From Chloroflexi bacterium GWB2_49_20 (GTDB lineage Bacteria; Chloroflexota; Anaerolineae; Anaerolineales; Villigracilaceae), in NCBI GenBank assembly GCA_001796335.1, contig MGMF01000015.1, positions 1 through 51,589 on the forward strand: 51,589 bases of DNA, given 5' to 3'. The position numbers and the translations under genes are program-made. Shown piece after piece: positions 1 through 14,565 of this stretch. How positions within the stretch are numbered: position 1 is the first letter of the stretch; every line of letters begins with the position of its first letter. Below the pieces are notes generated by a model. That model saw nothing but the letters and a program-made list of their open reading frames with translations, was not told where the DNA came from and made no database searches.

Positions 1-1026
1 CAGGTCATAGATAAGCTGTCCCACGGTCTCTTCAGGGTTTACCTTGAAGAATTCATAAAATGATCGGCTGGAGGAGACCACCCGGAGATCCTGATCCAGA
101 GAAATCAAGGGTTCACGCACAGTATTGATGACGCTCTCGGCAAATTCACTGACTTCATCTGCGGTTATTTTTATGATCTCCAGTTCTTTGCGGGTATTTT
201 CCAGCCCATTTTCTATCTCCCTGCGGGTGGCATCTGTCTGGTTAAGCGAGCGCGCCGTTACCAAAATCCCAATAACCAAAACAATTGTGTACGTCACTGC
301 CATGAGCGAGATGCCAAAGGTCGTATCGTACAACCCGGCTCGCTCCCCCATAAGACCGATCCAGCCCAGTACCACCGGAACGATGAGGGCGATGGGCAGC
401 ATGCGGAGGGTCAGAAGACCCGCATTGCCACTGTTATTAATTATCGCCATCAGTCCAATCTCAGATTGTGCGAAAAGCATGGACAGGCACAGGACGGTAA
501 AGGCTGCGCCCGTTTGAACCGGCATAAGCGTGTAGTCTAAAATGCCGAACAGTACCTTCGCACCATAAAAGTGGCCCACCACAGCCAACACAGCGATCAC
601 ACAGGCGGAGATGATCAGGTACTGGGCAGGGTGACGACCCTGGCGTGTTTCCCGATCCATAAGCAACAGGCCGATACCGACCAGAAGAAAATTCAAGGCG
701 GTATTTGGACCCATCCGGCCGGGGCTAAAGGTGCCAAAGGCGCCCACCGGTTCCTTGAACAAAAGTTGGTCAATCCCAAGATTCCAGCCGAACAGGTATT
801 GGCTGAGTGTAAGCAGACCGATCAAAGCCACTACGACAGCGCAAGCCTGTTTCAGGCTCTGAATGCGCCGGTCAGTCGGGTCAATCAACGCCAGCCTCAG
901 CGACACACCAGCCAGCAAAAACCCGACCGCAGCGTTGGCCTTTACCGAGAATGCGCCCAGTAAAAAGGTCTTCAATGCGGTAATGTCAAAGATCCAACCC
1001 AGGAGTACCAGGCAGCCGAAGAGCAC
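1..1026 (-). CDS. Membrane sensor protein with N-terminal TM region and PAS domain (3' end outside window)
   Basis: The reverse strand is open from about 1119 down to base 1. Read this way it gives several hydrophobic segments (for example around residues GIGLLL, VVVALIGLLTL, VLVIGILV), a short helical linker with NGLENTRKELEII, then a PAS-like start (FAESVINTVREPLISLDQDL, then FYEFFKVNPEETVGQLIYDL). This is the usual N-terminal layout of a membrane PAS histidine kinase or PAS-GGDEF protein; the output domain lies outside the window, so the class is open. No ATG is present in frame near the 5' end: GTG at 1026 is the first usual start, with CTG at 1053 or a non-canonical start further up also possible. 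Forward-strand ORFs here are its shadows. Confidence 0.75.
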   Translation of the reverse strand, partial: MLFGCLVLLGWIFDITALKTFLLGAFSVKANAAVGFLLAGVSLRLALIDPTDRRIQSLKQACAVVVALIGLLTLSQYLFGWNLGIDQLLFKEPVGAFGTFSPGRMGPNTALNFLLVGIGLLLMDRETRQGRHPAQYLIISACVIAVLAVVGHFYGAKVLFGILDYTLMPVQTGAAFTVLCLSMLFAQSEIGLMAIINNSGNAGLLTLRMLPIALIVPVVLGWIGLMGERAGLYDTTFGISLMAVTYTIVLVIGILVTARSLNQTDATRREIENGLENTRKELEIIKITADEVSEFAESVINTVREPLISLDQDLRVVSSSRSFYEFFKVNPEETVGQLIYDL

Positions 1027-2005: not shown

Positions 2006-2034
2006 TTGTAATTTTAGAATATATGTTCTATTAT
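2006..2034 (+). promoter_or_regulatory. Promoter of capsid cluster with SOS-box-like operator
   Basis: TTGTAA (2006-2011) and TATTAT (2029-2034) are separated by 17 bp. The imperfect inverted repeat TAGAATATATGTTCTA (2015-2030) fills the spacer and overlaps the -10 box. It resembles the GAAC-N4-GTTC LexA boxes of Gram-positive bacteria with one mismatch (GAAT). The expected start of transcription is about 2041. The promoter is a sequence reading; LexA control is inference, since LexA sites in Chloroflexota are not uniform. Confidence 0.5.
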
Positions 2035-2040
2035 ATCCCT

Positions 2041-2073
2041 GGCAAGAGTCGCCCCCGGAATGCGACTCTTGCC
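2041..2073 (+). promoter_or_regulatory. Strong hairpin at predicted 5' end of capsid-cluster transcript
   Basis: GGCAAGAGTCGC (2041-2052) pairs perfectly with GCGACTCTTGCC (2062-2073), followed by GGTTGTTTTAAG. It lies just after the predicted promoter, so it would form the first bases of the mRNA. It could stabilise the 5' end, or the short U-rich run could make it a weak attenuator or terminator. Confidence 0.5.
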
Positions 2074-2172
2074 GGTTGTTTTAAGGGGGCGGCTCATGCC
2101 AGGACGAAGCGGCCATCGCACAGCATAGCATCCCCTGCGGGGGACAGGCCGCCAAAATGACAAGGAGTTAAC

Positions 2173-2421
2173 ATGCCTGAAAAAACTCTGGCCGGGCAGG
2201 CTTCCAGCCGGTGCCGGCTGGACCCCAAAGGCTGCAATGACCTGGCCGCCCTCAAAGAGAAGGTGGCCAACCTGGAGGCGGATGTGCTGACCAATACGCG
2301 CGAGATCCGCAACCTGATCGAACTGGCCGCCCAGATCAAGCTGCTCATGTCCCTGGCCATCGGCGGGGGAGCCATGTCGCTGCTCAACCTGGTCCTGTTC
2401 TTTCTCAACAATATTCACTGA
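2173..2421 (+). CDS. Small coiled-coil membrane protein, XhlA/holin-like
   Basis: 82 residues with a good ribosome site (AAGGAG) six bases before the ATG. Residues about 28-55 (LAALKEKVANLEADVLTNTR) look like an amphipathic coiled coil, and residues about 58-79 are a single hydrophobic C-terminal segment. This layout is that of XhlA-type phage membrane proteins, which act with a holin, but sequence similarity is not strong by eye. It is the first gene of the virion cluster and lies 17 bases before the portal gene. It may alternatively be a small structural or anchoring protein. GC and codon use match the following phage genes. Confidence 0.6.
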   Translation: MPEKTLAGQASSRCRLDPKGCNDLAALKEKVANLEADVLTNTREIRNLIELAAQIKLLMSLAIGGGAMSLLNLVLFFLNNIH

Positions 2422-2438
2422 CCTTGAAAGGACTTAAC

Positions 2439-3797
2439 ATGCCAACCCTTTTAGAACGCCTGCGCTCATTTGCAAACCCCGCCACACCACGCCCCACATT
2501 AACCGTAGTGGAAACCGACACCAATTTCTACACCGGCACATCCACCGCCGCCGACCTGTTCCGTGATCGCCTGGACTATGACCGCCTCACTATCCTGGCT
2601 GAAGCCTTGCGCGCATGGAGGACCAACCCCATTGCGCGCTGGATCGTGCAGCTCACCAATGTCTTTATCCTGGGCACGGGTATGGAATGGGAGTGTACGA
2701 ACAAACGTTCCAGTAAATTCCTCAAGGAATTTTGGGAACACCCGCTCAACCAGCTTGCTCTCCAACTTCCCAAGTGGCTCGACGAACAGACCCGGTCCGG
2801 AGATCTCTTTCTCCTGTTCTCAGTGGACGCCGCCGGCATGTCCTACGTGCGCGCCGTCCCTTCCGAGCGCATCAAAGAGATCCAATCCAAAGAGAACGAT
2901 TACCAGCAGGAAACCTTTTTCATCCAGGACGACTTGAACGCATCCCCCTGGCCGGCCTACAACCCCGCCGAACCGCAGACGACTTTCATGCTGCACTTCC
3001 CCATCAACCAGCCCGTAGGCTGCCAGTTCGGGGAGAGTGACCTGTCCCCCCTGCTCCCATGGATCGGACGGCTATCCACCATCGTTTCAGACCGCGTCAC
3101 CCTGAACCATGTGCGCTCGATGATCAGCTTTGTTATGCAAGGCAAGTTCATGGACCCGGCTTCAAAGCAGAAAAGGCAGCGTGAGATCGAGCTCCATCCT
3201 CCCAAGCAGGGATCGGTTCTGGTGACGGACGAGACCGAGGTTTGGAGTGTGTTGTCTGCCAAGCTGGATAGTTCGGATGCGAAAGAAGACATCCTGGCCG
3301 TCAAGAAGATGATCGCCGTCGGCGTAGGCGTACCCTTGCACTACCTGGCCGAACCCGAAAGCTCCACCCGCACCACAGCCGAAGCCGCCGGCACACCCAC
3401 TTTCAAGCGCTTCGATGACCGCCAAAGACAATTCAAGCACACCGTCTTGACCATCCTGCAAATTGCCCTGGCTGTTCGCCGGCACACGGACAAGAGCCTG
3501 CCGGCCGCACCGGAGATCGTGATCAACGCCGGAGATATTACAGAACGGGATAACAGCCTGCTCTCCCTGGCGGCTGCACGCGTGGAACCTGCCCTCGCTG
3601 ATCTCTATGACAGAAAGTTGATTGAAGAGCCGGAGTATCTACGGATTTTCTACCGCATGATCGGAGAATTACTGGACGAAGAAAAGATACCCACCTCCGG
3701 TTTGCGCAAAGACATCAACAAACCCACCGGCACCGGCCAGATCGCCGATCAGCCCACACCCGAAGACCAGGAACCCCAAGAGGACACACCCGAATGA
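2439..3797 (+). CDS. Phage portal protein
   Basis: 452 residues from ATG 2439, which sits seven bases after AAAGGA; the upstream TTG at 2424 has no such site. Portal proteins form the dodecameric ring at one vertex of the capsid through which DNA passes. The order of features fits: an early Tyr/Arg-rich segment with WRTNPIARWIV, a mid region with RSGDLFLLFSVDAAG and VRAVPSERI, then GESDLSPLLPWI and a C-terminal helical part containing GVPLHYLAEPESSTRTTAEA, a motif of the portal/phage head family. The acidic Pro-rich tail is probably disordered. Neighbours (protease-capsid, connector) support the call. No large terminase gene precedes it, which is unusual. Confidence 0.8.
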   Translation: MPTLLERLRSFANPATPRPTLTVVETDTNFYTGTSTAADLFRDRLDYDRLTILAEALRAWRTNPIARWIVQLTNVFILGTGMEWECTNKRSSKFLKEFWEHPLNQLALQLPKWLDEQTRSGDLFLLFSVDAAGMSYVRAVPSERIKEIQSKENDYQQETFFIQDDLNASPWPAYNPAEPQTTFMLHFPINQPVGCQFGESDLSPLLPWIGRLSTIVSDRVTLNHVRSMISFVMQGKFMDPASKQKRQREIELHPPKQGSVLVTDETEVWSVLSAKLDSSDAKEDILAVKKMIAVGVGVPLHYLAEPESSTRTTAEAAGTPTFKRFDDRQRQFKHTVLTILQIALAVRRHTDKSLPAAPEIVINAGDITERDNSLLSLAAARVEPALADLYDRKLIEEPEYLRIFYRMIGELLDEEKIPTSGLRKDINKPTGTGQIADQPTPEDQEPQEDTPE

Positions 3798-3820
3798 TCC
3801 TGTTCTTCCCACCCCATGTT

Positions 3821-3852
3821 CTTCTTCGTGTCTTTGTGCCTTAGTGGTTAAT
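3821..3852 (+). repeat. CTTTGTG-type dispersed repeat, copy before capsid gene
   Basis: CTTCTTCGTGTCTTTGTGCC followed by TTAGTGGTTAAT. Near-copies lie at 6641-6672, 8088-8120, 9010-9041 and 9085-9113, each just upstream of the ribosome site of the next phage gene. Degenerate versions are at 18210-18230, 28080-28105 and 37019-37048 outside the cluster. Confidence 0.75.
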
Positions 3853-3881
3853 ATATTTTTCCCTCAATAAAGGAGTAACCC

Positions 3882-5969
3882 ATGCCAGAACAATTCCTTT
3901 CCCAACCCTATCTTTCCAATGCTTCTCTTCCCCCCATTTTAGGTTTTCAAAATGGGGGGATCGAGGGGGGCAAAGCAGACATGCTCAGCAAGATCGAATC
4001 GGGAGAGATCGACCACCTCGACTTTCAGGCCGTGGTTTTCAAAGGTGGCAAGAACAGAAACTTCTATCGCTTCCCCGATGCGGAAATGTCCTCTTTCGCC
4101 GCCACATACGAAGGCCGTCCCTTCCTGCGCAACCATGACGAGTATGACATTGACGCCAGGGATGGCACGATCCTGCGCTCGTTTTACCTGATGGGTGAAT
4201 TATGCCAGGACATTCGCCTCACTACACGCAAAGGCATGATCTCCCTGCTCGAAGGCCAGATCGACCGCTTTTCCATCGGCTGGTTCTTCGACAAGGTTAC
4301 CTGCTCCGTCTGCACCCAGGACTTCCGCACCTGCCACCACTGGCCAGGACGTGAATACACCGTGTCACATGACAACGTGCAAACAAATGTTCTATGTGAA
4401 GTCATCTTCTCAGGTCTCTCCGGCAAGGAAACATCCGCCGTTAATGTCCCCGCCGTTGAAGGCACATCCATCCTGGCCAACCTCAAGGCCAATACCGTAG
4501 GGGCTGGGTCTCCCAGCCCAACAACGTCCCGGCGTACTTCCGGGAAGGAGAAAGAATCAATGACCGCACCAATCTTAAGCACCACACCGCAAGACCCGCC
4601 AGCCGACAATATGCCGGCACAGACCACAGAGGGAGCGAAGTTACTCGCGCAACAATGTGGTTTCGTTCTGACCGCCGCCCTCAATGCCTCCAACCTGCCC
4701 GAACTCACCCGGGCACGCATCAAGCGCCAATTCGACGGCCAGGTCTTCCAGCTTGCCACTCTCGACGCCGAGATCGAAGCCGCGCGCACAGAGGTAGCCA
4801 GCCTTTCTGCAGCCAGCCTGGTACAGGGACCAGCGCGCATATCTGGCATGGCCGCCAGCGCAGATCAGGTCTCCGCCGCAGTGGATGATCTGCTTGGCGC
4901 ACCCCGCTCAGCCGGCCAGGAGAACCTCAAGCCCGCCCGCTTGTCCGGCATCCGTGAGCTCTACCTGCTCACCACTGGAGATTATGAACTCCACGGCGGA
5001 TTTTATCCGGAGCGGGCATCTCTGGCCACCACCTCAGACTTCTCCGGCCTGGTCAAGAACGCTCTCAACAAGGTGGTTGCCCGCCAGTGGGAAGCCCTGG
5101 GACGTGCCGGTTATGACTGGTGGCAGTCCATCGTCAAGGTCGAGCACTTCGAGAGCCTGAACGACATCACCGGTATTCTTACCGGCACAGTCGGGGCATT
5201 ATCCACCGTCGCAGAACAGGGCGAGTACACCGAACTGCCCATCGGTGACAGCCCCGAGACCGCTTCCTTCACCAAGTACGGCAATTACATCCCGCTCACA
5301 TTGGAGTTGATTGACCGTGACGAGACCCGCAAGCTCAAGCAGTACCCCATCGAGCTTGCCAACGCAGGCATCCGAAACATCTCAAAGCTGATTGCAGCCG
5401 TGTTCACCGACAATGCGGCCATTGGGCCGACTATGGCAGACACCGGCGCTTTGTTCAATACCACCGCAGTCACCACCCTCGGCGGGCACAAGAACCTGCT
5501 CACCACCGCTCTGACAGCCGCCGAATGGGATGTGGTTGCAGCCGCCATGTACAACCAGCCCATGCTCATCAAACAGGCCGCCGGGTACTATGGCACAGGT
5601 TCGAAGATGGCAGTCGAGCCCCGTTTCTGTCTGGTACCGCGCGCTCTCCGCAAGGCCGCCTTCGATGCCTTCCTGAACGCCTGGGATGTGACCGACAACA
5701 AGCACAGCGAGAATCTGCTCAAGGGCAATGTGGTGCCGTTGGTTGTGCCCGAATGGACAGACGCCACCGATTGGGCGGCAGTCGCAGATCCCGCCATCGT
5801 GCCAGGCATCGTACTGGGCGAACGCTTTGGCATCAAGCCGGAGATCTTCATCGCCAACCGTGAGACCGCCCCCGCCGTGTTCATGAATGACGAACACCGC
5901 CTCAAGGTTCGCCACTTCCTGGCCGTCCTGGTCCAGGACTTCCGACCGTTGCATAAGAGCAACGTCTAA
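3882..5969 (+). CDS. Prohead protease fused in frame to major capsid protein
   Basis: 695-residue open frame with AAGGAG before ATG 3882. Residues about 28-200 look like an HK97-type prohead protease: His85 in FLRNHDEYD and Ser131 in QIDRFSIGWFF are the likely catalytic pair, and there is an unusual CxxC...C-H cluster after it. Residues about 227-695 form the major capsid protein. The two parts are joined by about 15 residues encoded by a dispersed palindromic repeat (4497-4541). Residues 14-27 are also encoded by a CCCCCATTTT-type palindrome. Normally these are two genes; the repeat seems to have removed the stop between them. An internal start (see 4560) probably supplies free capsid protein. 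Confidence 0.8.
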   Translation: MPEQFLSQPYLSNASLPPILGFQNGGIEGGKADMLSKIESGEIDHLDFQAVVFKGGKNRNFYRFPDAEMSSFAATYEGRPFLRNHDEYDIDARDGTILRSFYLMGELCQDIRLTTRKGMISLLEGQIDRFSIGWFFDKVTCSVCTQDFRTCHHWPGREYTVSHDNVQTNVLCEVIFSGLSGKETSAVNVPAVEGTSILANLKANTVGAGSPSPTTSRRTSGKEKESMTAPILSTTPQDPPADNMPAQTTEGAKLLAQQCGFVLTAALNASNLPELTRARIKRQFDGQVFQLATLDAEIEAARTEVASLSAASLVQGPARISGMAASADQVSAAVDDLLGAPRSAGQENLKPARLSGIRELYLLTTGDYELHGGFYPERASLATTSDFSGLVKNALNKVVARQWEALGRAGYDWWQSIVKVEHFESLNDITGILTGTVGALSTVAEQGEYTELPIGDSPETASFTKYGNYIPLTLELIDRDETRKLKQYPIELANAGIRNISKLIAAVFTDNAAIGPTMADTGALFNTTAVTTLGGHKNLLTTALTAAEWDVVAAAMYNQPMLIKQAAGYYGTGSKMAVEPRFCLVPRALRKAAFDAFLNAWDVTDNKHSENLLKGNVVPLVVPEWTDATDWAAVADPAIVPGIVLGERFGIKPEIFIANRETAPAVFMNDEHRLKVRHFLAVLVQDFRPLHKSNV
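4497..4541 (+). repeat. 45-bp palindromic repeat inside protease-capsid frame
   Basis: Starts GTAGGGGCTGGGTCTCCCAG and ends with GTCCCGGCGTACTTCC. The same 45-bp sequence, about 80-85% alike, lies at 7324-7368 inside another phage gene and is read in the same frame (VGAG.P.P.TSRRTS). Shorter relatives (GTAGGGGC-GGG...CCC-GCCC) lie outside coding sequence at 5973-5996 and 8943-8965. Confidence 0.85.
4560..5969 (+). CDS. Major capsid protein from internal start (alternative product)
   Basis: ATG 4560 is in frame with the fusion at residue 227. It has a strong ribosome site, AAGGAG at 4545-4550, nine bases upstream and directly after the repeat. The product of 469 residues begins MTAPILSTTPQDPP, has a helical Ala-rich N-terminus (possible scaffold-like delta region), and a C-terminal part with YTELPIGDSPETASFTKYG, SEPRF-like AVEPRFCLVPRALR and PGIVLGERFGIKPEIFIANR, a pattern of HK97-fold capsid proteins. 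This is probably the original capsid gene; whether the cell makes fused, free or both forms cannot be told from sequence. Confidence 0.65.
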   Translation: MTAPILSTTPQDPPADNMPAQTTEGAKLLAQQCGFVLTAALNASNLPELTRARIKRQFDGQVFQLATLDAEIEAARTEVASLSAASLVQGPARISGMAASADQVSAAVDDLLGAPRSAGQENLKPARLSGIRELYLLTTGDYELHGGFYPERASLATTSDFSGLVKNALNKVVARQWEALGRAGYDWWQSIVKVEHFESLNDITGILTGTVGALSTVAEQGEYTELPIGDSPETASFTKYGNYIPLTLELIDRDETRKLKQYPIELANAGIRNISKLIAAVFTDNAAIGPTMADTGALFNTTAVTTLGGHKNLLTTALTAAEWDVVAAAMYNQPMLIKQAAGYYGTGSKMAVEPRFCLVPRALRKAAFDAFLNAWDVTDNKHSENLLKGNVVPLVVPEWTDATDWAAVADPAIVPGIVLGERFGIKPEIFIANRETAPAVFMNDEHRLKVRHFLAVLVQDFRPLHKSNV

Positions 5970-6071
5970 TCGTAGGGGCAGGGTTTCCCTGCCCATCTTT
6001 CCTTCGTACCTACGTCCCGGCCTCTTTTTCCGGGATTGTGGTTACAAATTCTTTCAACAGGAGAATAGATC

Positions 6072-6572
6072 ATGATCCATAACACGCACGTTTCCCAATT
6101 CATCCCACCCACCGCTTTTCATCCGGTCACCGGCACATTCACCTGGGTAGCCGGCGCAGTGGCCGGAACCATCGCCATGAACCGCGCCGCCGCCAATGAG
6201 ACTTCGGTCATCAACATCCCCATCCTCATCCCCTCCAATTCGATTGCCCTGCAAGGCGCAAAACTGGTCAGCATCGAAATCGATTATGAGTTCTTCACCG
6301 CAGAACCGACCTCCTTAACCCCAGTCATCAACAAGGTCACGCGCGGCGTAGACACCGCAGTCGCAGTCGTGGCCGCCCAGGCCTTCTCCCAATCCCCCAC
6401 CGCCGCCAACAGCAAGACCGTTGATCAACACCGCCTGACTTTGACCCTGACCACACCCATCTGGGTTGACAATGATGAGTACGTCCTGGTCGAACTCTCA
6501 CTGGTTGCCGGCGCAGGTGGCAACACCGCCAAGTTCCTCGGCGCAGTGGCAAACTTCACCCTTCGAGTTTAA
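6072..6572 (+). CDS. Putative phage structural (decoration/head) protein
   Basis: 166 residues, ATG preceded by CAGGAG. Sequence is rich in Val, Thr, Ala and predicted beta strands, with no Cys, signal peptide or membrane segment. It carries no motif I recognise. Its place directly after the major capsid gene, in the same direction and with the same GC-rich codon use, is where capsid decoration or head-completion proteins usually are; that function is inferred from position only. Confidence 0.6.
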   Translation: MIHNTHVSQFIPPTAFHPVTGTFTWVAGAVAGTIAMNRAAANETSVINIPILIPSNSIALQGAKLVSIEIDYEFFTAEPTSLTPVINKVTRGVDTAVAVVAAQAFSQSPTAANSKTVDQHRLTLTLTTPIWVDNDEYVLVELSLVAGAGGNTAKFLGAVANFTLRV

Positions 6573-6698
6573 AGGCTAAACCTCCTGGCCTTTATTCCAG
6601 GCGGGAGGGACGCTCACCCTCCCGCCTTCCCCCCAAAGGTTCTTCTTAGTGTCTTCGTGCCTTTGTGGTTACAAATTCTTTCAACAAGGAGATCACCC

Positions 6699-7067
6699 AT
6701 GAAAGACCGCGCACGCATGATCATCGCTTTACTGGCAGGCATCCTCTTCATCGTCCTGAACGCCATCTTCCCAGACCTGCCCTTCACCGAAAACCAGACC
6801 ATTGTATTTGTCGGGTTGATCGGTGCTTACATTCTTGGCGAAGGTCTGGAAGGCCAAAGACTTGCAGATAATTTCAGGTTAGTCCTGCGCTCAAATAAAT
6901 TCCATGCGCTGGTGGCAGGGCTGTTAATAGTGACTGTACGATCATTTCTGCCAAACTTTCCCCTGTCAGAAGCACAACTTGCCGAACTTGTTTCCATCCT
7001 GGCCGTTCTCATCGTGGGTGCAGGAGTGCAGGGAGCTATAGATAATGCCGGCCAACCAAAGGGTTAA
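6699..7067 (+). CDS. Small multi-pass membrane protein, holin-like
   Basis: 122 residues from ATG 6699, nine bases after AAGGAG; the frame extends upstream but without a ribosome site and into the CTTTGTG repeat. Four hydrophobic stretches are visible (about residues 7-25, 33-50, 67-84 and 97-114), with short charged loops. Size, topology and location among virion genes suit a phage holin, the protein that makes pores for lysin release, but no lysin gene is seen nearby. It could equally be a membrane protein without lytic role. The stop overlaps the next gene by 23 bases. Confidence 0.6.
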   Translation: MKDRARMIIALLAGILFIVLNAIFPDLPFTENQTIVFVGLIGAYILGEGLEGQRLADNFRLVLRSNKFHALVAGLLIVTVRSFLPNFPLSEAQLAELVSILAVLIVGAGVQGAIDNAGQPKG

Positions 7068-7305
7068 AGGGATTGTTACAAACCATCCCTATTTATCCCG
7101 CCCCGCCAACCGTAAGCCGATCAACTGCAACCAGGACCATGAATCCATTGCCAAGGACATCGCTCTCAAATATGGTGGTGACGTGCTGATTTGGGAATAC
7201 GATCCACAATCCAATTCCCTGTTCGTCATGTTCACCAATCACCGTAAGTTTAGATTGTTTTTTTCGCAGATCCCCGAAAGGGGAGAGGAGATTTCAAATG
7301 ACTAA
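7045..7305 (+). CDS. Small uncharacterised protein, paralogue of next gene
   Basis: 86 residues. The start overlaps the end of the holin-like gene and its own end overlaps the next gene by 8 bases, which suggests translational coupling. The C-terminal half (IAKDIALKYGGDVLIWEYDP, then SLFVMFTNHRKFRLFF) aligns with the next gene's VVKDYEHQFKGEVLRWRLNK and LIILFVDGRKFHFLL. I do not recognise the family. A compact alpha-beta fold of about 45 residues with an RKF motif is shared by both. Confidence 0.55.
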   Translation: MPANQRVKGIVTNHPYLSRPANRKPINCNQDHESIAKDIALKYGGDVLIWEYDPQSNSLFVMFTNHRKFRLFFSQIPERGEEISND

Positions 7306-7540
7306 GAGAAAAGATAATTCACAGGTAGGGGCGGGGTTACCCCGCCCGGCAACGTCCCGGCGTACTTCCATTCCATCCCTCAATTCAAAATTCGAGGCCG
7401 TTGTCAAGGATTATGAACACCAATTCAAAGGCGAAGTCCTGCGTTGGCGGCTGAATAAAGGTGAAAACGAGTTGATCATTTTATTCGTGGATGGCCGCAA
7501 GTTCCATTTCCTGCTGCCCGTTGCCTGGATAAAGGCATAA
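7298..7540 (+). CDS. Small uncharacterised protein, paralogue of previous gene, carrying in-frame repeat
   Basis: 80 residues, ATG 7298 behind GGAGAGGAG. Residues about 10-24 (VGAGLPRPATSRRTS) are encoded by the same 45-bp repeat that joins protease to capsid. The remaining C-terminal 45 residues match the preceding protein, so the two are tandem duplicates, one with a repeat insertion in its N-terminal part. Function unknown. Confidence 0.55.
   Translation: MTKRKDNSQVGAGLPRPATSRRTSIPSLNSKFEAVVKDYEHQFKGEVLRWRLNKGENELIILFVDGRKFHFLLPVAWIKA
7324..7368 (+). repeat. 45-bp palindromic repeat inside small phage gene
   Basis: Second copy of the repeat at 4497-4541, again inside a coding frame and without a stop codon. 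The palindromic part is GGGGCGGGGT / ACCCCGCCC, followed by GTCCCGGCGTACTTCC. Confidence 0.85.
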
Positions 7541-7548
7541 ACCCATGT

Positions 7549-7582
7549 CCGCCCGAGTAGTGGCGGATCATTGACCCGCCCA
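7549..7582. repeat. Dispersed repeat related to the tRNA-Lys-linked tandem repeat
   Basis: CCGCCCGAGTAGTGGCGGAT followed by CATTGACCCGCCC. It matches the 27-bp unit next to tRNA-Lys (CTCGCCCGGGTAGTGGCGAA, then TTCTTGA). It fills the gap between two phage genes. Confidence 0.7.
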
Positions 7583-7601
7583 GACTTAAGGAAGATGTAA
7601 T

Positions 7602-8042
7602 ATGTTTGACGGTCAAAACTGGTACTCCATGAAAGATGGAAACGCCACAGCAAGGAACTTTTTTGATAAACATTATTCACGCCATTTTTATCAGGATGGC
7701 CGCAGACCAAAATTGTTTGTTGGTCCTGGCGAGAAAATGGTGCTAATGACTTCTGATTTTAAGGCTCTTTTCATTTGGAGAAAATTCATTAGCAAGAATG
7801 GGCAAAAAGGAATAAACTGTGCCGTCTTCCGAAATGAAAGTTATATGCTTTCAAGTACATTGATTTTGGAAGCTGAAAAGCTGGCATGGGATAAATGGCC
7901 GATGGAACGTTTATATACCTACGTGAATCCAAGAAAAATAACTTCCACAAATCCGGGCTATTGTTTCCTAAAAGCTGGCTGGCGTAAATGCGGAATAACG
8001 AAGGCCAAAAAATTAATAATACTAGAGAAAGAATTTGAATAA
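7602..8042 (+). CDS. Mom/GNAT-like protein (possible DNA-modification acyltransferase)
   Basis: 146 residues, ribosome site AGGAAG before ATG. Motifs seen: KHYSRHF near the N-terminus, FVGPGEKMVLMT, ALFIWRKF, INCAVFRNES, SSTLILEAEKLAW, RLYTYVNPRKI and NPGYCFLKAGWRKCG. This order (KHYS, then FRNE, then S.LI.EA, then a Gly-Trp near the end) is like the GNAT-fold group that includes phage Mu Mom, which modifies adenine to protect phage DNA. The resemblance is by eye and the substrate is unknown. It lies inside the virion cluster and its codon use is more AT-rich than the capsid gene, so it may be a later addition. Confidence 0.5.
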   Translation: MFDGQNWYSMKDGNATARNFFDKHYSRHFYQDGRRPKLFVGPGEKMVLMTSDFKALFIWRKFISKNGQKGINCAVFRNESYMLSSTLILEAEKLAWDKWPMERLYTYVNPRKITSTNPGYCFLKAGWRKCGITKAKKLIILEKEFE

Positions 8043-8167
8043 ATGAATATTCCAATTAAGACGCTATTGAAGTTCTTCCCCAAAAGTTCTTTCTTTGTGT
8101 CTTGGTGTCTTGGTGGTAAATTTTTTTCGTCCATCGTATATCGTCAACCGACTAACAGGAGGTTCCC

Positions 8168-8788
8168 ATGTCTGCAATCGCCGCATATAGAACAAAAATT
8201 CTCGCCCTGCTGGATGACCCTACCATACAGCGCTTCACCAGCGCGCAGATCGATGCTGCCCTGGTCTACGCAGTCGAAGAATATTCCCGCTGCAAACCCC
8301 TCGTCCGCTCTTACTCACTGGACAGCACCGGAGCACAGCGCATCACGTTACCGGCTGACTTTTCTTCCTTCTCAATTGTCAGGGTTGAATGGGTCAGGGA
8401 TGACTTCCACACCGATGAAGTCCCGTTCTATACCTACATGCAGGACGAGCAATGGATCCTCGAAACTTGTAATGTGACAATTCCCCTGGGTGAAGTTCTA
8501 GCGCTCACCTATTACTGCATGCACACCATCGATGGACTTGCATCGGCAGCCGGTACGACCATACCGGACACAGACGAAGACCTGGTAGTGTTGGGGGCAG
8601 CCGGTGAAGCCGCGCGCTCAAGAGCCATCTCCAAAACCGAGAGCAACAACCTCAACCCTGCTGAAGCTGAGCAGCTCACCGCCTTTGCACTCAGCATGTT
8701 GCACAAGTTCGAGCGCTCCCTCGGCAGGTATGAGACCGGCTACCAGACCGCCAGTTGGAACGACACCAGCATTGACAAGGCCTATTAG
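8168..8788 (+). CDS. Head-tail connector / adaptor-like phage protein
   Basis: 206 residues with AGGAGG eight bases before ATG 8168. The N-terminus (YRTKILALLDDPTIQRFTSA then IDAALVYAVEEYSR) is the typical helical start of head-completion adaptors such as gp6-like proteins, which form the ring below the portal. A beta-rich middle and an Ala/Glu-rich helical C-terminus (LVVLGAAGEAARSRAISK) follow, as in that group. Its position after capsid genes and before the tail gene agrees. No catalytic motif. Confidence 0.65.
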   Translation: MSAIAAYRTKILALLDDPTIQRFTSAQIDAALVYAVEEYSRCKPLVRSYSLDSTGAQRITLPADFSSFSIVRVEWVRDDFHTDEVPFYTYMQDEQWILETCNVTIPLGEVLALTYYCMHTIDGLASAAGTTIPDTDEDLVVLGAAGEAARSRAISKTESNNLNPAEAEQLTAFALSMLHKFERSLGRYETGYQTASWNDTSIDKAY

Positions 8789-9137
8789 ATTATCCTGGAT
8801 AAATTTGATGGTGGGACAAAATAGCGCAGATCCAGCTGGTGATATCGAACCTTTTAGCCCATAAATGGGGCAGAAAAGGAAATCCGAAGATCCTTTTTTG
8901 CCCCAAGTGGGACGATTTATTAACAAGGTGAAACATGATCTCAGTAGGGGCGGGGTTTCCCCGCCCTGATTTATTGGGCAATTATATTCTTGACAAACCC
9001 AATTTTGTCCTTCTTTGTGCCTTTGTGTCCTGGTGGTTAAATCTTTCCCGTCCTGTTTTATTGTTCCTCGTTGTTTTCTCATTTTGTCCTTCTTCGTGTC
9101 TTTGTGGTTAAATCTTTCTTGTTGAAACGGAGTTCCC
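8789..9137 (+). repeat. Spacer with repeats and duplicated start of tail gene
   Basis: No convincing full gene. A short frame at 8865-8969 (34 codons, starts MGQKRKSEDPFLPQVGRF) runs into the palindromic repeat and could be a remnant. ATGATCTCAGT occurs at 8935-8945 behind AAGGTG and again at 9138-9148, where it opens the tail gene. Between the two lie a GTAGGGGC palindrome (8943-8965) and two CTTTGTG repeats (9010-9041, 9085-9113). Confidence 0.6.
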
Positions 9138-11237
9138 ATGATCTCAGTTAACGCCAACCTCTTAGCCGCCTCCGAAAAAGGCACCGGCATACCCATCTTC
9201 ACCATCGAACTATTCCACTATCTCCCAGGTGGATGGATCAGCTCAGGCAGCTTCGATGTGATCCAGGCCAAACTTACCCGCCTCAAGTACACCATCCGCG
9301 TGCATGAAAACTTGGTGGGAGATCCTTACATTCTGACCACCGCAGGCGCACCCTACGCCATCACGGTCAGGCGTGGCTTGAACGTGGCTGGAACAGACTA
9401 TACCTACACATCCAGGAAGTATTTTGTTTCGGTCGCTTCCTACCTGGCCAACGAAGGCTACACCGAATTGATAGCGGACTTGCTGCCAGCCATTGCCATC
9501 AGGGGCATCGCCGCAGACGTGGCCGCCGCCACGGTCATTGACAATGCTCTCACTTCGGTTCTGGTCACGGATTATGCCCAGGACAACACACGCGATTGTT
9601 GGTACACCTGGCAGTTCTATCCCACCACCAAGACCCTCGACCTGTTCGACGCGCGCAGTCTCTCGCCTCTGTTGGCAACCAAATACTTTGCCTACCTGTT
9701 CCCCAGGTCAACCGGATTGTATGTCTACAATGTCCCTTCCAACTTCGAGAACGGGGAAGATGGCGCCTACATCCCCTTTTCCCATGCCCGCGTCAAGTCT
9801 GTGGTTGCATCCGACAAGTATCTTAACCTTTCCTGGGTGAGTGAGACCGGCAAGAATTACATGACGCGTGCCGCCGAATATGCCTATCATTATCTGGGCT
9901 TTATTGCAGACGCAGTTAATCCCATCACGGTAGGGAACTTCACAGAATGGGGACAGGTCTTCACCCGCCACACCTACGAGATCCACCAGAGACCCGACTT
10001 CCGATTGGAGCAAGGCGATCTGCTTACCCTGTCATTGGATGATTATGGTCATGTGCGCTGCATTGAACTGACGGAGATTTACAAGACCGGCAAAAATCCG
10101 GAATGGACGCAGATCATCACGCAGCTACCCCATCACCCACAAGCCGGTTCAGCCAGGATAGGCGATTTCCCCGACAATCCGGAACCCAAACCCACCGCCT
10201 CAAACGTACTGCTCGCCACCGGCAACTTCACCCAATTGCTCAGTCCCGCAGATTCGGATGTTCAAGCCGCCATGGACACGATTGACAATCTGGCCTACTT
10301 CCTCAAGATGGCCAATGGTGGCATCATAGGACAGACCGCCGGACCGCAGATCAAATTCGATGACACCCAAAATGAACTTGAGATTTCAAATGCAAACGTC
10401 GGCATCGGCACACCTTCACCAGACACTTTACTGCACTTACTCTCGGCAGTCTCAGCCGAACCTACCATCAAACTTGAGAACACCAATGCGGATAATAATG
10501 CCCCAAGTCTATATTTCTATAAGAATTCAGCCAGCCCATTGAATGCAGACTATATCGGTTTTCTCTCTTTTTACGGCAAGGATGATGCAGGTACTATACT
10601 CCGTCATGCTTTGATCAGTGTTCAAATGGCGGACGCTTCCGCCGGTGCAACGGTTACAAGACTGACGATCAAGGGCATGGTCAGTGGGGTGGACACAGCC
10701 GCTTTTACGATTGTAAATGGCAAGGTCGGCATCAACACAACAGCACCCGCCGCCCAACTCGCCATCAATGGCGGCCTGCACGTGGGCGGAGACAGTGACC
10801 CAGGCGACAATAATCTCCTGGTGGATGGGACTTTACAAACTACCGGGGACATTCTCATCGATGTAACTGCCAATGCCGTCTTTCGCTTCCTGATTTCCAG
10901 TGTGGAACAGGGAGCATTTTACTGTCTGACCACAGATGATAATTTCAACATCCGCGCCACCAAAGCCACAGGCAAATTGACTTTCAGGACCGGCGGAAGT
11001 ACGGTCAGGATGACCATCGATGCAGCCGGTAAAGTAGGAATTGCAGACGCCGCTCCTGCAGAAATGTTGGATGTGACCGGCAATGCCAATGTGACCGGTG
11101 TCTACAAGGTGGATGATGTGCAGGTGGTCGGCAACCAGGGAGCAGCAGTCGCCAACGCCACGGATGCAGCTTCCGTCATCGCCCGCCTGAATGATCTCCT
11201 GGCTCGTCTTCGCACGCATGGGTTGATCGCTACCTAA
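9138..11237 (+). CDS. Phage tail / fibre-like protein with C-terminal VGIGT-type repeats
   Basis: 699 residues, ATG after ACGGAG. Residues about 1-350 form a mixed domain with many aromatic residues (tail baseplate or hub-like; no catalytic motif recognised). Residues about 410-670 hold three copies of a beta-repeat motif: NVGIGTPSPDTLLHL, KVGINTTAPAAQLAI and KVGIADAAPAEMLDV, which are frequent in trimeric tail fibres and adhesins. A C-terminal helix (ASVIARLNDLLARLRTHGLI) may trimerise. As the longest gene and the last of the cluster it probably forms the host-contact or distal part. No separate tape-measure gene was found. Confidence 0.7.
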   Translation: MISVNANLLAASEKGTGIPIFTIELFHYLPGGWISSGSFDVIQAKLTRLKYTIRVHENLVGDPYILTTAGAPYAITVRRGLNVAGTDYTYTSRKYFVSVASYLANEGYTELIADLLPAIAIRGIAADVAAATVIDNALTSVLVTDYAQDNTRDCWYTWQFYPTTKTLDLFDARSLSPLLATKYFAYLFPRSTGLYVYNVPSNFENGEDGAYIPFSHARVKSVVASDKYLNLSWVSETGKNYMTRAAEYAYHYLGFIADAVNPITVGNFTEWGQVFTRHTYEIHQRPDFRLEQGDLLTLSLDDYGHVRCIELTEIYKTGKNPEWTQIITQLPHHPQAGSARIGDFPDNPEPKPTASNVLLATGNFTQLLSPADSDVQAAMDTIDNLAYFLKMANGGIIGQTAGPQIKFDDTQNELEISNANVGIGTPSPDTLLHLLSAVSAEPTIKLENTNADNNAPSLYFYKNSASPLNADYIGFLSFYGKDDAGTILRHALISVQMADASAGATVTRLTIKGMVSGVDTAAFTIVNGKVGINTTAPAAQLAINGGLHVGGDSDPGDNNLLVDGTLQTTGDILIDVTANAVFRFLISSVEQGAFYCLTTDDNFNIRATKATGKLTFRTGGSTVRMTIDAAGKVGIADAAPAEMLDVTGNANVTGVYKVDDVQVVGNQGAAVANATDAASVIARLNDLLARLRTHGLIAT

Positions 11238-11956: not shown

Positions 11957-13099
11957 TCATTCGAAGATATCCAGATAATTCTTGTAATAGTAAAGTTGGC
12001 CGTATTTAAGATCTGGATCTTTCTTTTGTAGAATGCCTTGATCGATGAAGCGTTCAATAACTTTTTGTGCTCCAGGTATGGAAAATCCTGTCCATTTACT
12101 TATTGTGGAGATACTTACAATAGGTTGTATAAAAAGATTGGGTAAGACAACAGCAGCGCTCTCTGCAGCGCGCTTGCCTAGACCAGCCATCTTTACAAGG
12201 TCTTGTTCCCGCAGTTTAGTGATCTTCGCAACAGTTTCAACGGCTTCTCCTGCGATTTCAATTACACCATCCAGGAAAAATTCAATCCATTTGTCAACCA
12301 ACCCATTATGGTAATCTTCCAGGCGGTTGATATAAATCTCTTTATGCTTCTTAAAATAACTGGATAGATACAATACAGGCTCTTCCAGGTATCCGACCTG
12401 CCATAAATAAAAGGTAATTAACATTCGACCCGTTCGGCCATTTCCGTCAAGGAAAGGGTGAATGATCTCGAACTGTGAATGAATTAACGCAGCTTTGATA
12501 ATGGGAGGAACCATGTCTTTGGAATGGATGAAATCTTCGAGTTGCGCCAGTGATGTTTTCATCACCTCCACTGGAGGTGGAACAAACCGGGCATTATCCG
12601 GCCGAGTGCCGTCCAACCAGTTCTGACTGGTGCGAAATTTCCCCGGATTTGAAAACTGGGTAACCCGGGCTTGATCCATTAACTCCTTATGAAGCTCACG
12701 GATGAATCGCAAAGAGATCGGGAATTTATCTTCTTTTACCCGTTGCATTCCAAATTTTAATGCCTTGATGTAGTGCAAAATATCATCTACATCTGGTGAA
12801 ACAGCTTCTCTGGATTTGACTTCTGCTTCGATTGCATCTATCATGGTTGCTTTGGTACCTTCGATTTGACTGGAAGCAGCAGCATCTTTCCGCAGATACA
12901 TAAGGAGGAAGAAATATAAATCCGGTAATAATCGGGTTATTCCATCCAGCTTACCGAGAAGTCTTACCGCTTCAAGGCTCTTTTGAATCACAGTTGCCTC
13001 AAAATGATAACCACCCACTGGGGGAAAAGGACCAGGGATGAACGCCGTGAACCCACCTGGTTGAGGTTGGAAATTACCGATCATGTATTTTTTTGTCAT
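11957..13099 (-). CDS. Fic-domain protein (adenylyltransferase family)
   Basis: 380 residues. The Fic active-site motif HPFLDGNGRTGR starts at His214; Fic proteins move AMP or similar groups from nucleotides to Ser/Thr/Tyr of target proteins. An intrinsic inhibitory helix motif is present N-terminally, S76-x3-E80-G81 (SSQIEG), which makes this a self-inhibited class II type. The C-terminal part (ISTISKWTGFSIPGAQKVIE) looks like a winged-helix DNA-binding domain. Length and domain order match the common stand-alone Fic proteins with a DUF4172-like/Fic_N region. No separate antitoxin gene is next to it. Confidence 0.9.
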   Translation of the reverse strand: MTKKYMIGNFQPQPGGFTAFIPGPFPPVGGYHFEATVIQKSLEAVRLLGKLDGITRLLPDLYFFLLMYLRKDAAASSQIEGTKATMIDAIEAEVKSREAVSPDVDDILHYIKALKFGMQRVKEDKFPISLRFIRELHKELMDQARVTQFSNPGKFRTSQNWLDGTRPDNARFVPPPVEVMKTSLAQLEDFIHSKDMVPPIIKAALIHSQFEIIHPFLDGNGRTGRMLITFYLWQVGYLEEPVLYLSSYFKKHKEIYINRLEDYHNGLVDKWIEFFLDGVIEIAGEAVETVAKITKLREQDLVKMAGLGKRAAESAAVVLPNLFIQPIVSISTISKWTGFSIPGAQKVIERFIDQGILQKKDPDLKYGQLYYYKNYLDIFE

Positions 13100-13291
13100 T
13101 TTGTTTATATCTCACAGGCAAATATTAACCAAGTATAGCAGATAGTTTATATTCATTCAAGCAATAGAAACAAGTATTCCAGTAAGTAAGCAGGTTGGGT
13201 TGAGCGGGTCTGACAATGGAAATGCCATCTCACAGAAGAGCGCATCGTACCCGCCCGTAGGGCATGCAGGGTGAAACCCAACATTCGGGCT
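13100..13291. repeat. Intergenic stretch with GTTGGGTT-type repeat
   Basis: Contains AGCAGGTTGGGTTGAGC at about 13188 and GAAACCCAACATT at about 13272, arms of a dispersed inverted repeat also seen near 14655, 21745 and 21940. Nothing else recognised. Confidence 0.55.
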
Positions 13292-14035
13292 TTATTGGGC
13301 GGTTTCCAATTTTATTTGTTCTCTGGTAAGTATTGATAAAGTTTCAGGAAGCAGGATCTTTCGGATCTGTTGAAACTTGTTATTGGGCAAAAGTGTATTC
13401 AGATCTTCATTGATTATTGTTTGGTTACCATGTTCTTTTATAAAATCGATTAATTTTCTGAAATAATCCTTTGGTTCAAGTCTGGTTCTTTCCTGGATAA
13501 CAGGTGTGTGGTAGGAATACCCGTGGATAAAAAAGTTGTGGATATCGTAAATATCTCTTCCAGCAATGGTCTGATGCAATTCAAATCGGTCTGTAACCGC
13601 TACCAATTTATTGGCAAACATCGTTTCTATAGTCTGGCTATTCATCAGCCGGTCAACTTCTGTAAAGTACTGTACTTTGTATTGGTTGGCATTAACCACC
13701 AGATTGCTGCCACTTATTTTCATGCTGTTACGCTTACCCGGATCGTTAGGATAACGCAATTGAAAAAACAAGACCTTATCAAACTCTCCGGAAATTTTTA
13801 ACCCCAGGTAGTCAAATACCTGGTGAAATTCATTCCGTAAAATAATTTCATCTGCATTTTTCAAAACATCAAAATCCAAATCGACTGAGTACCGATCCAA
13901 ATATCCAAGCATATTGGCGCAGGTACCGCCCTTGAAAGCCAGGTTATGGGCAAGCACAGGTCGGTCAATAATTTCCATTAAGAGCCTGTTTAGATAGGAC
14001 TTATGAAGGATATCTTCTGGTCTTAATTCCAGCAT
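13292..14035 (-). CDS. abiEii: AbiEii-type nucleotidyltransferase toxin
   Basis: 247 residues. FKGGTCANML (from Phe35) followed by SVDLDFDV (D52, D54) is the GG(T/S)...DxD core of the DNA polymerase-beta fold nucleotidyltransferases of the AbiEii/AbiGii family. The family acts as the toxin of type IV toxin-antitoxin systems; related enzymes add nucleotides to tRNA. The start overlaps the upstream abiEi gene by 13 bases, so the two are translated as one unit. Length agrees with the family. Confidence 0.85.
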   Translation of the reverse strand: MLELRPEDILHKSYLNRLLMEIIDRPVLAHNLAFKGGTCANMLGYLDRYSVDLDFDVLKNADEIILRNEFHQVFDYLGLKISGEFDKVLFFQLRYPNDPGKRNSMKISGSNLVVNANQYKVQYFTEVDRLMNSQTIETMFANKLVAVTDRFELHQTIAGRDIYDIHNFFIHGYSYHTPVIQERTRLEPKDYFRKLIDFIKEHGNQTIINEDLNTLLPNNKFQQIRKILLPETLSILTREQIKLETAQ

Positions 14036-14565
14036 GGATAACCTACTTCTTTTTGAATAAATTTAACATTTTTAAAGTCAATGCTTTCGGGAACGTCAAA
14101 ATGGTATTTGGGGTTGAAATACAGCATATCCGCTACTGCCCTTTCGGTGGAGGCTACAAAAACTCCGTTTTGATTTAATATCCCGATGGGGTTATAAAGA
14201 TATTCTTCCTTGAGCTGCCTGAATAGAAACGAAAAATTTTCCACCGATATTTTCTTGGGAAGGGTACTGACAAAAGTATATGCATAGGTAGCCTGGGCAA
14301 TAATTCCCGCTTTAGCCAATACCGATTCGGTGCTCAAGTAGGTGTATCTGTGAATGATGGCTTTGCCCAGGTCCAGCGGATCCAGTTGTGAAAGGGGAAC
14401 TGTGGAATACAACCCTTTATAAATAGATACCAGCACCCCTTTTTGAACATAGCGCTTGATGGTGGTATAAAGGGTGTTTTTATTGGTGATATTCCATAGA
14501 AGAGCCAGATCATTGCTATGATATATTTTGCGGTCCAGCTTGATAAGTTCACTTATTCTGTACAT
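14023..14565 (-). CDS. abiEi: AbiEi-type antitoxin / transcriptional repressor
   Basis: 180 residues. The N-terminal half is a winged-helix domain (HSNDLALLWNITNKNTLYTT, then YVQKGVLVSIYKGLYSTVP), the typical start of AbiEi antitoxins, followed by a C-terminal domain with YTFVSTLPKK and STERAVADMLYF. It represses its own operon in known cases. The ATG at 14565 lies inside a perfect palindrome (14553-14580), which fits autoregulation. A leaderless or very short leader is likely. Confidence 0.8.
   Translation of the reverse strand: MYRISELIKLDRKIYHSNDLALLWNITNKNTLYTTIKRYVQKGVLVSIYKGLYSTVPLSQLDPLDLGKAIIHRYTYLSTESVLAKAGIIAQATYAYTFVSTLPKKISVENFSFLFRQLKEEYLYNPIGILNQNGVFVASTERAVADMLYFNPKYHFDVPESIDFKNVKFIQKEVGYPCWN

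Follow-up and report, generated by a model that had tools for sequence, protein, structure and literature searches.

Gene transfer agents (GTAs) such as RcGTA and BaGTA are encoded by prophage-like virion gene clusters that lack an integrase and are controlled in connection with the damage response; RcGTA is long-tailed and inherited vertically. Capsid-forming satellites of the phage-inducible chromosomal island (PICI) type encode their own capsid and portal and have a reduced tail. Here, we compare with these systems a virion gene cluster at positions 2006 to 11237 of a 51,589-bp stretch of DNA (hereafter, the window) from Chloroflexi bacterium GWB2_49_20, which makes up contig C15 entirely; the genome, in 28 contigs, has 3.37 Mb and is 99.4% complete. 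Like RcGTA and BaGTA, the cluster has no integrase in the window, and a LexA-type box before it would link its control to the damage response; unlike RcGTA, it is sporadic in its host family and has an adaptor of the short-tail type. In contrast to the PICI satellites, no satellite regulator or integrase was found for the window element, and a terminase probably adjoins. An earlier note, made from the sequence of the window, had described the cluster as a domesticated or relic capsid system. That reading arose mainly from a contig end, from the lack of a tape measure, which the adaptor type does not require, and from repeats that are cluster-specific rather than chromosomal. We consider it most likely that the cluster is one operon of a damage-inducible prophage-type element, and probable, although well short of certain, that this element is a resident member of a small temperate, short-tailed phage family of the Anaerolineales, with its genes in two co-oriented operons.

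The temperate short-tailed phage locus L228 (IMG/VR IMGVR_UViG_3300037424_002166, 24.8 kb) shares its portal and large terminase (TerL) families with the window element, and a 5-row portal clade (support 96) joins the two. L228 has an integrase, and its capsid start was recognised by eye at the locus end. In L228, the TerL gene lies directly before the portal gene, after a long early region, whereas the window element is split by a block of kinase and response regulator genes. Microcystis phage Mae-JY22 (PP438414) was the only phage record in the collection that matched the window portal (24%, 5e-14), and it also matches the capsid (29%, 3e-18); this 41-kb phage is distant, the match covering 63-64% of each protein.

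The long frames at 2006-11237 are co-directional and open, and hold about 2,700 codons of virion genes in the order coiled-coil/membrane protein, portal, protease-capsid fusion, gp166, holin-like protein, three small genes, adaptor and hub/fibre. The features of the cluster are as follows.

2006 to 2034, plus strand: promoter, with -35 TTGTAA at 2006-2011, a 17-bp spacer and -10 TATTAT at 2029-2034 (hexamers by eye)
2015 to 2030, plus strand: LexA-type palindrome TAGAATATATGTTCTA, within the promoter
2041 to 2073, plus strand: leader hairpin GGCAAGAGTCGC/GCGACTCTTGCC, downstream of the promoter
2173 to 2421, plus strand: 82-aa protein with a coiled coil and a membrane segment, holin-like by eye
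2439 to 3797, plus strand: portal protein (phrog_10963, E 2.4e-20)
3882 to 5969, plus strand: fusion of prohead protease and major capsid protein (PF25209, 1e-26; phrog_4523, 1e-27; NF045541, 7e-35, which falls below that model's curated cut-off)
6072 to 6572, plus strand: gp166, 50-67% identical to 11 relatives
6699 to 7067, plus strand: holin-like membrane protein (phrog_9987 holin, E 0.0013)
7045 to 7305 and 7298 to 7540, plus strand: two small related open reading frames (ORFs), 30% identical to each other, with counterparts in relatives L024 and L025
7602 to 8042, plus strand: 146-aa protein of an unknown phage family (phrog_24928, 5e-29), not found in L024 and L025
8168 to 8788, plus strand: portal-tail adaptor of the short-tail type
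9138 to 11237, plus strand: 699-aa protein with a gp27/VgrG-like tail hub (N-terminal 350 aa) and a fibre-like C-terminus

The earlier note had read portal, protease, capsid, connector and tail/fibre genes in a collinear row of open frames, and the profile matches and the adaptor fold bear this out. The portal is 75% identical to that of L024 and 35-48% identical to those of 13 further relatives; a search of the genome with the Pfam model PF04860, which is too distant, had found nothing. For gp166 there was no PHROG or PDB match, and it is probably a decoration or head protein. Homologues of the holin-like gene lie behind the capsid gene in many relatives. While weakly matched in sequence (PF24175, 0.009), the adaptor is clear from its fold: its model (pLDDT 85) had sixteen PDB matches at E 0.001 or better, among them the adaptors of KHP30 (7e-7), A4 (1e-5), GP4 (1.5e-5), N4 (3e-5) and SU10 (3e-4), with TM-scores of 0.4-0.6 against short-tailed-phage adaptors in the PDB. 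It also matched the P1 connector (4e-5) and, more weakly, a GTA neck protein (2e-3); nearly all of the sixteen matches come from short-tailed phages, with P1 the clear exception. The hub model (pLDDT 80) matched the diffocin hub (4e-11), the PVC spike (4e-10) and T4 gp27 (6e-9), and the C-terminus of the same gene matched a tail fibre family (phrog_9942, 3e-7). Sequence-profile searches of the PDB with the adaptor, the hub and gp166 gave no match.

The missing tape measure, which the earlier note listed among the absent genes, does not have to mean that a gene was lost: the adaptor is folded like those of short-tailed phages. The adaptor and hub genes are at most 25 bp apart in 24 of the 29 relative rows that show both (some rows being one contig counted twice), so that no room is seen there for tube or tape-measure genes; the gap in the window is 349 bp. 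No such gene was seen between adaptor and hub, although no profile search was aimed at them. Directly behind the cluster (window 11957-14565) lie a Fic-domain gene (PF02661) and a nucleotidyltransferase/AbiEi-like toxin-antitoxin pair, the latter recognised by eye.

The portal of the cluster groups with those of temperate phages. A search of IMG/VR gave 340 confirmed capsid loci and 466 TerL loci, from which 80 of each were taken, and a portal tree of 165 rows was built with FastTree and rooted at the midpoint, after duplicates, rows shorter than 330 aa and the distant L020-L022 had been dropped. The window and L024 fall in an 88-row part of this tree (support 99), which holds 17 of the 18 integrase-labelled rows. 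Among tree loci of at least 14 kb, an integrase was found in 13 of 31 in the window's part, in 1 of 19 in a syntenic clade discussed below (Fisher p 0.008) and in 0 of 20 elsewhere. L024 is 75% identical to the window in portal and capsid, and its flanks do not align with those of the window. In the host family, the capsid profile matched 7 of 150 genomes, own genome included and two of them weakly, and apart from the own genome no portal of more than 50% identity was found in 152 genomes. The earlier note had named a complete prophage in a relative as what would overturn its reading, and a parallel does exist in genome G033, where integrase, TerS (small terminase subunit), TerL, portal, capsid, adaptor and hub genes lie within 18 kb of a 977-kb contig and would form a single prophage. 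The window element itself has the portal, HK97-type capsid with protease and short-tail adaptor of a temperate short-tailed phage, together with a terminase if contig C24 adjoins.

The lack of a terminase, to which the earlier note had given much weight, is most likely a contig-edge effect. No TerL was found on C15 with two profiles, and the window begins inside a gene.

1 to 1026, minus strand: N-terminal half of a sensor kinase ending in a PAS domain; the frame is open to base 1, where the contig end cuts it

The PAS domain covers profile positions 4-49 of 113. The left end of C24 (C24:1-858) encodes the C-terminal half of a histidine kinase, and among the 56 contig ends of the genome kinase halves were seen only at these two left ends (open frames of 100 aa or more, judged by eye). 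With kinases of Calothrix and Nostoc plasmids, a single continuous alignment (179 query residues, 525 bp, 33-35% identity) runs through both halves, which it places 40-44 aa apart; of the 551 records that matched, 5 cover 80% or more of the query. The kinase gene of C15:1-1026 probably continues as C24:1-858. C24 (6,000 bp) carries on its minus strand the leader and genes for a DnaD-like protein (phrog_186, 3.8e-22), a 124-aa protein, TerS and TerL. The TerL matched at 2.6e-203 a profile of the TerLs of six relatives that contained no row from the own genome, and the TerS matched at 3.9e-22 a model whose training hits included the gene itself. The genome-wide search for TerL that the earlier note had proposed thus had a positive outcome, with genes on C1, C24 and C11 and a truncated one on C21.

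With the two contigs joined, the C24 operon would lie upstream of the cluster on the same strand, with its TerL end about 5 kb before the portal gene. Such an order keeps TerL before the portal, as in the family, where TerL was found within 6 kb upstream in 108 of 115 distinct portal and capsid loci with 1.9 kb or more of upstream DNA; it was not found there in L020, L023 (the window's own species), L024, L115, L126, L144 and L311. The 14-row clade of the C24 TerL (support 93) and the 22-row clade of the window portal (support 92) have nine loci in common (L095, L101, L107-L110, L222, L224 and L228).

We had considered a TerL-less lineage common to the window and L024, which was dropped because the left end of the window is a contig break in a gene continued on C24; L024, with only 2.0 kb upstream, cannot decide this point. 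A scan of IMG/VR with the C24 TerL for a contig spanning the gap gave 17 pattern matches and no relative. It also seemed possible that a GTA split over the genome uses the solo TerLs of C1 and C11. This idea was set aside since these modules are not tied to the present capsid: a solo TerL also occurs in genomes G113 and G126, for which the capsid profile search of 150 genomes listed no capsid.

Solo TerL genes, without an adjacent portal gene, were found in L050 (8678-10276, own C1), L052 (358-2118, own C11), L082, L083, L084 (G090), L085 (G113) and L090 (G126). They form two supported clades (100 each) and keep the conserved motifs, and three pairs gave ratios of nonsynonymous to synonymous substitution (dN/dS) of 0.20-0.27 by the NG86 method and 0.08-0.12 by maximum likelihood (ML). 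In L050, L083 and L090, TerS follows TerL, the reverse of the phage order. The solo TerL of L052 adjoins an Eco57I-type restriction enzyme gene and that of L050 a HATPase gene.

A single promoter before the cluster, as the earlier note had proposed, was confirmed at 2006-2034, and it contains the palindrome TAGAATATATGTTCTA. With two mismatches allowed, the pattern gave 15 and 16 strand matches at 16 places in the own genome, and the reversed control gave 1 and 2. The own lexA gene (C1:172079) has AGAACGTATGTTCG between -35 TTGACA and -10 TATTAT; because a box of the same kind lies in the lexA promoter, we read the motif as a LexA (SOS) box. Five of the 16 places are before genes of this phage family, namely the C15 cluster, the TerLs on C1 and on C11, a DnaD fragment with the truncated TerL on C21, and an apparently decayed early region on C25. 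A sixth place (C1:160034) is before a TerS-like gene recognised by eye only. Near-identical copies of the leader lie at C24:5964, where the contig ends inside the leader, and at C25:34, where it likewise follows the promoter; it is also present in L024, as a variant on C11 and in a degenerate form on C1. Promoter and leader are 82% identical over 100 bp to those of L024, compared to 64-75% for the longer coding alignments and 79% for a 57-bp coding piece. The leader pattern was found in IMG/VR only in the window's own species and L024. Covariation in the hairpin was not significant (2 pairs changed on both sides in 6 sequences; 86 of 500 shuffles were as high). A candidate for a second LexA at window 28351 (LexA_DNA_bind, 2.7e-6, above the model cut-off) was rejected as HrcA-like by eye.

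Elsewhere in the genome, LexA-type promoters lie directly before a host dispersed repeat (TCTACTCAC...) at C9:100, C1:160034, C1:412500 and C25:92253, as if the repeat had been inserted behind several damage-inducible promoters. LexA-type boxes also precede two similar membrane-protein genes (C22:74984 and C4:7296), one of which is divergent from a DNA ligase-like gene (by eye).

The earlier note had argued from the open frames that selection may act on the cluster, and the dN/dS values, far from 1, agree with this. Between the window and L024 (NG86), they were 0.10 for the portal, 0.13 for the capsid, 0.08 for gp166, 0.15 for the holin-like protein, 0.18 for the adaptor and 0.34 for the coil gene, and 0.33 for hub/fibre between the window and L025. 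These ratios are rough because dS is high, 0.69 for the short coil gene and at least 1.47, near saturation, for the others; ML gave lower ratios, with dS up to 29. The comparison indicates that the virion genes have been under constraint since the window and L024 separated, wherever that selection may have acted.

The repeats of the cluster fall into two groups.

3822, 6643, 8091 and 9011, plus strand: four copies of the D1 repeat of about 30 bp, with a partial copy near 9082
4497, 5972, 7325 and 8944, plus strand: four copies of the D4 hairpin repeat
3929 to 3972, plus strand: stretch of a dispersed repeat, in frame, within the capsid start (its three matches, 83-87%, all lie on C11; a gap in L024)

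The D1 copies precede the capsid, holin-like, adaptor and hub genes, with 25-100 bp to the gene start, and D1 might be a processing or translation signal. A search through 532 kb of the rest of the genome (16% of it) gave one match for D1 (4 copies) and no match for D4 (4) or D4b (2), and the other 42 kb of the window contain none of the three. L024 carries a D4-like hairpin in the corresponding position, behind its capsid gene. These three repeats seem to belong to the element and to be cluster-specific, so the description of the repeats as chromosomal does not hold for them; it does hold for 3929-3972 and for pieces of the gaps 5970-6071 and 8789-9137, which match elsewhere in the genome.

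In the arrangement that we propose, operon 1 (C24) would consist of the leader, the DnaD-like replication protein, the 124-aa protein, TerS and TerL, and its LexA box would lie off the contig. Operon 2 (C15) would run from the LexA promoter and leader through coil/membrane protein, portal, protease/capsid, gp166, holin-like protein and adaptor to hub/fibre, and an opposite-strand block with the sensor kinase and two response regulators would separate the two. LexA would keep operon 2 off and would be inactivated on DNA damage. With both operons then expressed together, the products of operon 2 may form procapsids with portal, adaptor and hub, to be filled by the TerS and TerL of operon 1.

Several observations weigh against this prophage reading. 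The coil gene would follow TerL in the joined order, whereas it precedes TerL in 50 of 53 relatives: in 53 distinct relatives that show 2.5 kb behind it, the first labelled gene downstream was TerL in 33, TerS in 17 and the portal in 3, the last being L023, of the window's own species, and L024/L025. The ends of C15 and C24 do not overlap, about 40-44 aa of the kinase being missing; kinases are common, and the plasmid-kinase alignment shows a normal kinase rather than one gene in both halves. The C24 TerL is no more than 57% identical to any other TerL in the tree, and the TerLs on C1 and C11, which also have upstream LexA-type boxes, could take its place. The hub fold is familiar mostly from long tails, and it is odd in itself to have a hub without a tube. 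The integrase label is not clustered on the portal tree (18 changes, shuffled mean 17.4) because most contigs are too short to show an integrase. Finally, no integrase, repressor or endolysin was identified for the element. The earlier note was right that the cluster lacks an integrase and a lysin: a hidden Markov model made from relatives found no integrase in the window or on C24 (beyond which the region is not assembled), and there was no endolysin among the ten cluster ORFs, to which that search was limited. There was also no flanking direct repeat among the 20 repeat families shown for the window. The one integrase-family match in the own DNA, in a search that covered the smaller part of the genome, lies on C21 (L425, C21:120000-139999), far from the element.

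A host-maintained GTA-like system, in which the integrase was lost and LexA-controlled virion and packaging operons would pack host DNA, is in our judgement unlikely for the window cluster. The intact frames, dN/dS well under 1 and integrase-free window are what such a system would show, the same virion operon and leader recur in L024 with flanks that cannot be aligned to those of the window, and a sister clade in the Anaerolineaceae behaves like a vertically inherited GTA. The window portal, however, sits in the integrase-rich part of the tree, the capsid family is sporadic in the host family, which holds no second portal above 50% identity, and the selection measured against L024 may have acted in phages. 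A GTA is marked by a virion cluster that lacks an integrase and is inherited vertically at a fixed site; the window cluster does not have this profile, the sister clade does, and the GTA option of the earlier note fits the sister clade better.

An old remnant, that is, a defective prophage split by insertion and rearrangement whose frames are not yet broken, is less likely still. It would account for the split operons, for the apparently decayed early-region copy on C25, for the truncated TerL on C21 and for the LexA-type promoters at C9, C1:412k and C25:92k that have a host repeat behind them. Its difficulty is that the virion codons and the C24 operon are all open, and that promoter and leader are more similar to those of L024 than the longer coding alignments are.

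A capsid-encoding satellite that takes its terminase from a helper is very improbable: the window has no TerL and the portal directly follows the coil gene in the window and L024, but TerS and TerL probably adjoin on C24, further TerL loci exist in the genome, and no satellite integrase or regulator was found. The phage-derived compartment of the earlier note can be dismissed in its encapsulin form, an HK97-fold shell without portal or tail parts, since portal, adaptor and hub are all present.

Among named genomes, a scan gave 56 loci (L289-L344), of which 52 are labelled as Chloroflexota taxa and four otherwise, and none of the 56 had an integrase match in the DNA around it, which is at least 14 kb long in 35 of them. 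The cluster of L295, about 11.5 kb, reads TerS, coil, TerL, GH25 endolysin, portal, protease-capsid, gp166, holin-like protein, adaptor and two unidentified genes, followed by chromosome. In the 35 long loci, the GH25 family between TerL and portal was found in 19 and the two unidentified genes in 18 and 19; downstream, a GH1 glycosidase gene lies in 10, a DegV gene in 12 and one or both in 16, and a YgjP-like peptidase gene lies upstream in 11. The capsids of the 16 synteny-marked loci are 57-91% identical, so recent copying does not account for these loci. For capsid and DegV (r 0.86, n 12) and for TerL and DegV (0.85, n 11), the identity matrices were correlated (both Mantel p 0.0005), as were those of capsid and TerL with GH1 (r 0.46 and 0.60, n 10; p 0.006 and 0.0005). 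The dN/dS values of TerL, portal and capsid were 0.05-0.14 (six pairs; 3 of 18 values saturated). A LexA box (at most 2 mismatches) was found within 400 bp before TerS in 23 of 33 sister loci, with 0.15 expected from shuffles, compared to 10 of 93 phage and family loci, with 0.1 expected.

The smallest clade with all 15 synteny-marked portals has 36 rows (support 99), of which 14 are other genome rows, 6 are from viral contigs and 1 bears an integrase (L159). The synteny label needs ten changes on the portal tree and is not one block. The fixed site, co-divergence, near-absence of integrase, constraint and damage control are as expected of a GTA, and on these sequence grounds the Anaerolineaceae sister clade is a GTA candidate. 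Among the titles listed from the open-licence literature there was none on a GTA of the Chloroflexota, which is weak evidence of absence. We put at slightly below an even chance the combined proposal that the Anaerolineaceae carry an integrase-free, SOS-controlled, short-tailed GTA, the result of at least one capture of this family by its hosts and descended with the chromosome, and that the window cluster is a temperate-phage relative in or near a capture of the same kind, its packaging genes being already separated from the virion genes in two operons that share a leader.

For the window, a probable false "relic capsid system" is removed, and the locus is an example of how a contig end can create one. 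For the wider group, members of one protein family seem to occur both in temperate phages and in a LexA-boxed cluster that is fixed in the chromosome and diverges together with its neighbours. The GTA candidate can be tested in a named strain, Levilinea saccharolytica KIBI-1 (L314), which has a related cluster with a LexA box outside the 16 synteny-marked loci. If the fixed cluster produces particles that transfer genes, the Chloroflexota would gain a GTA with close phage relatives, in which the change from phage to GTA could be studied directly.

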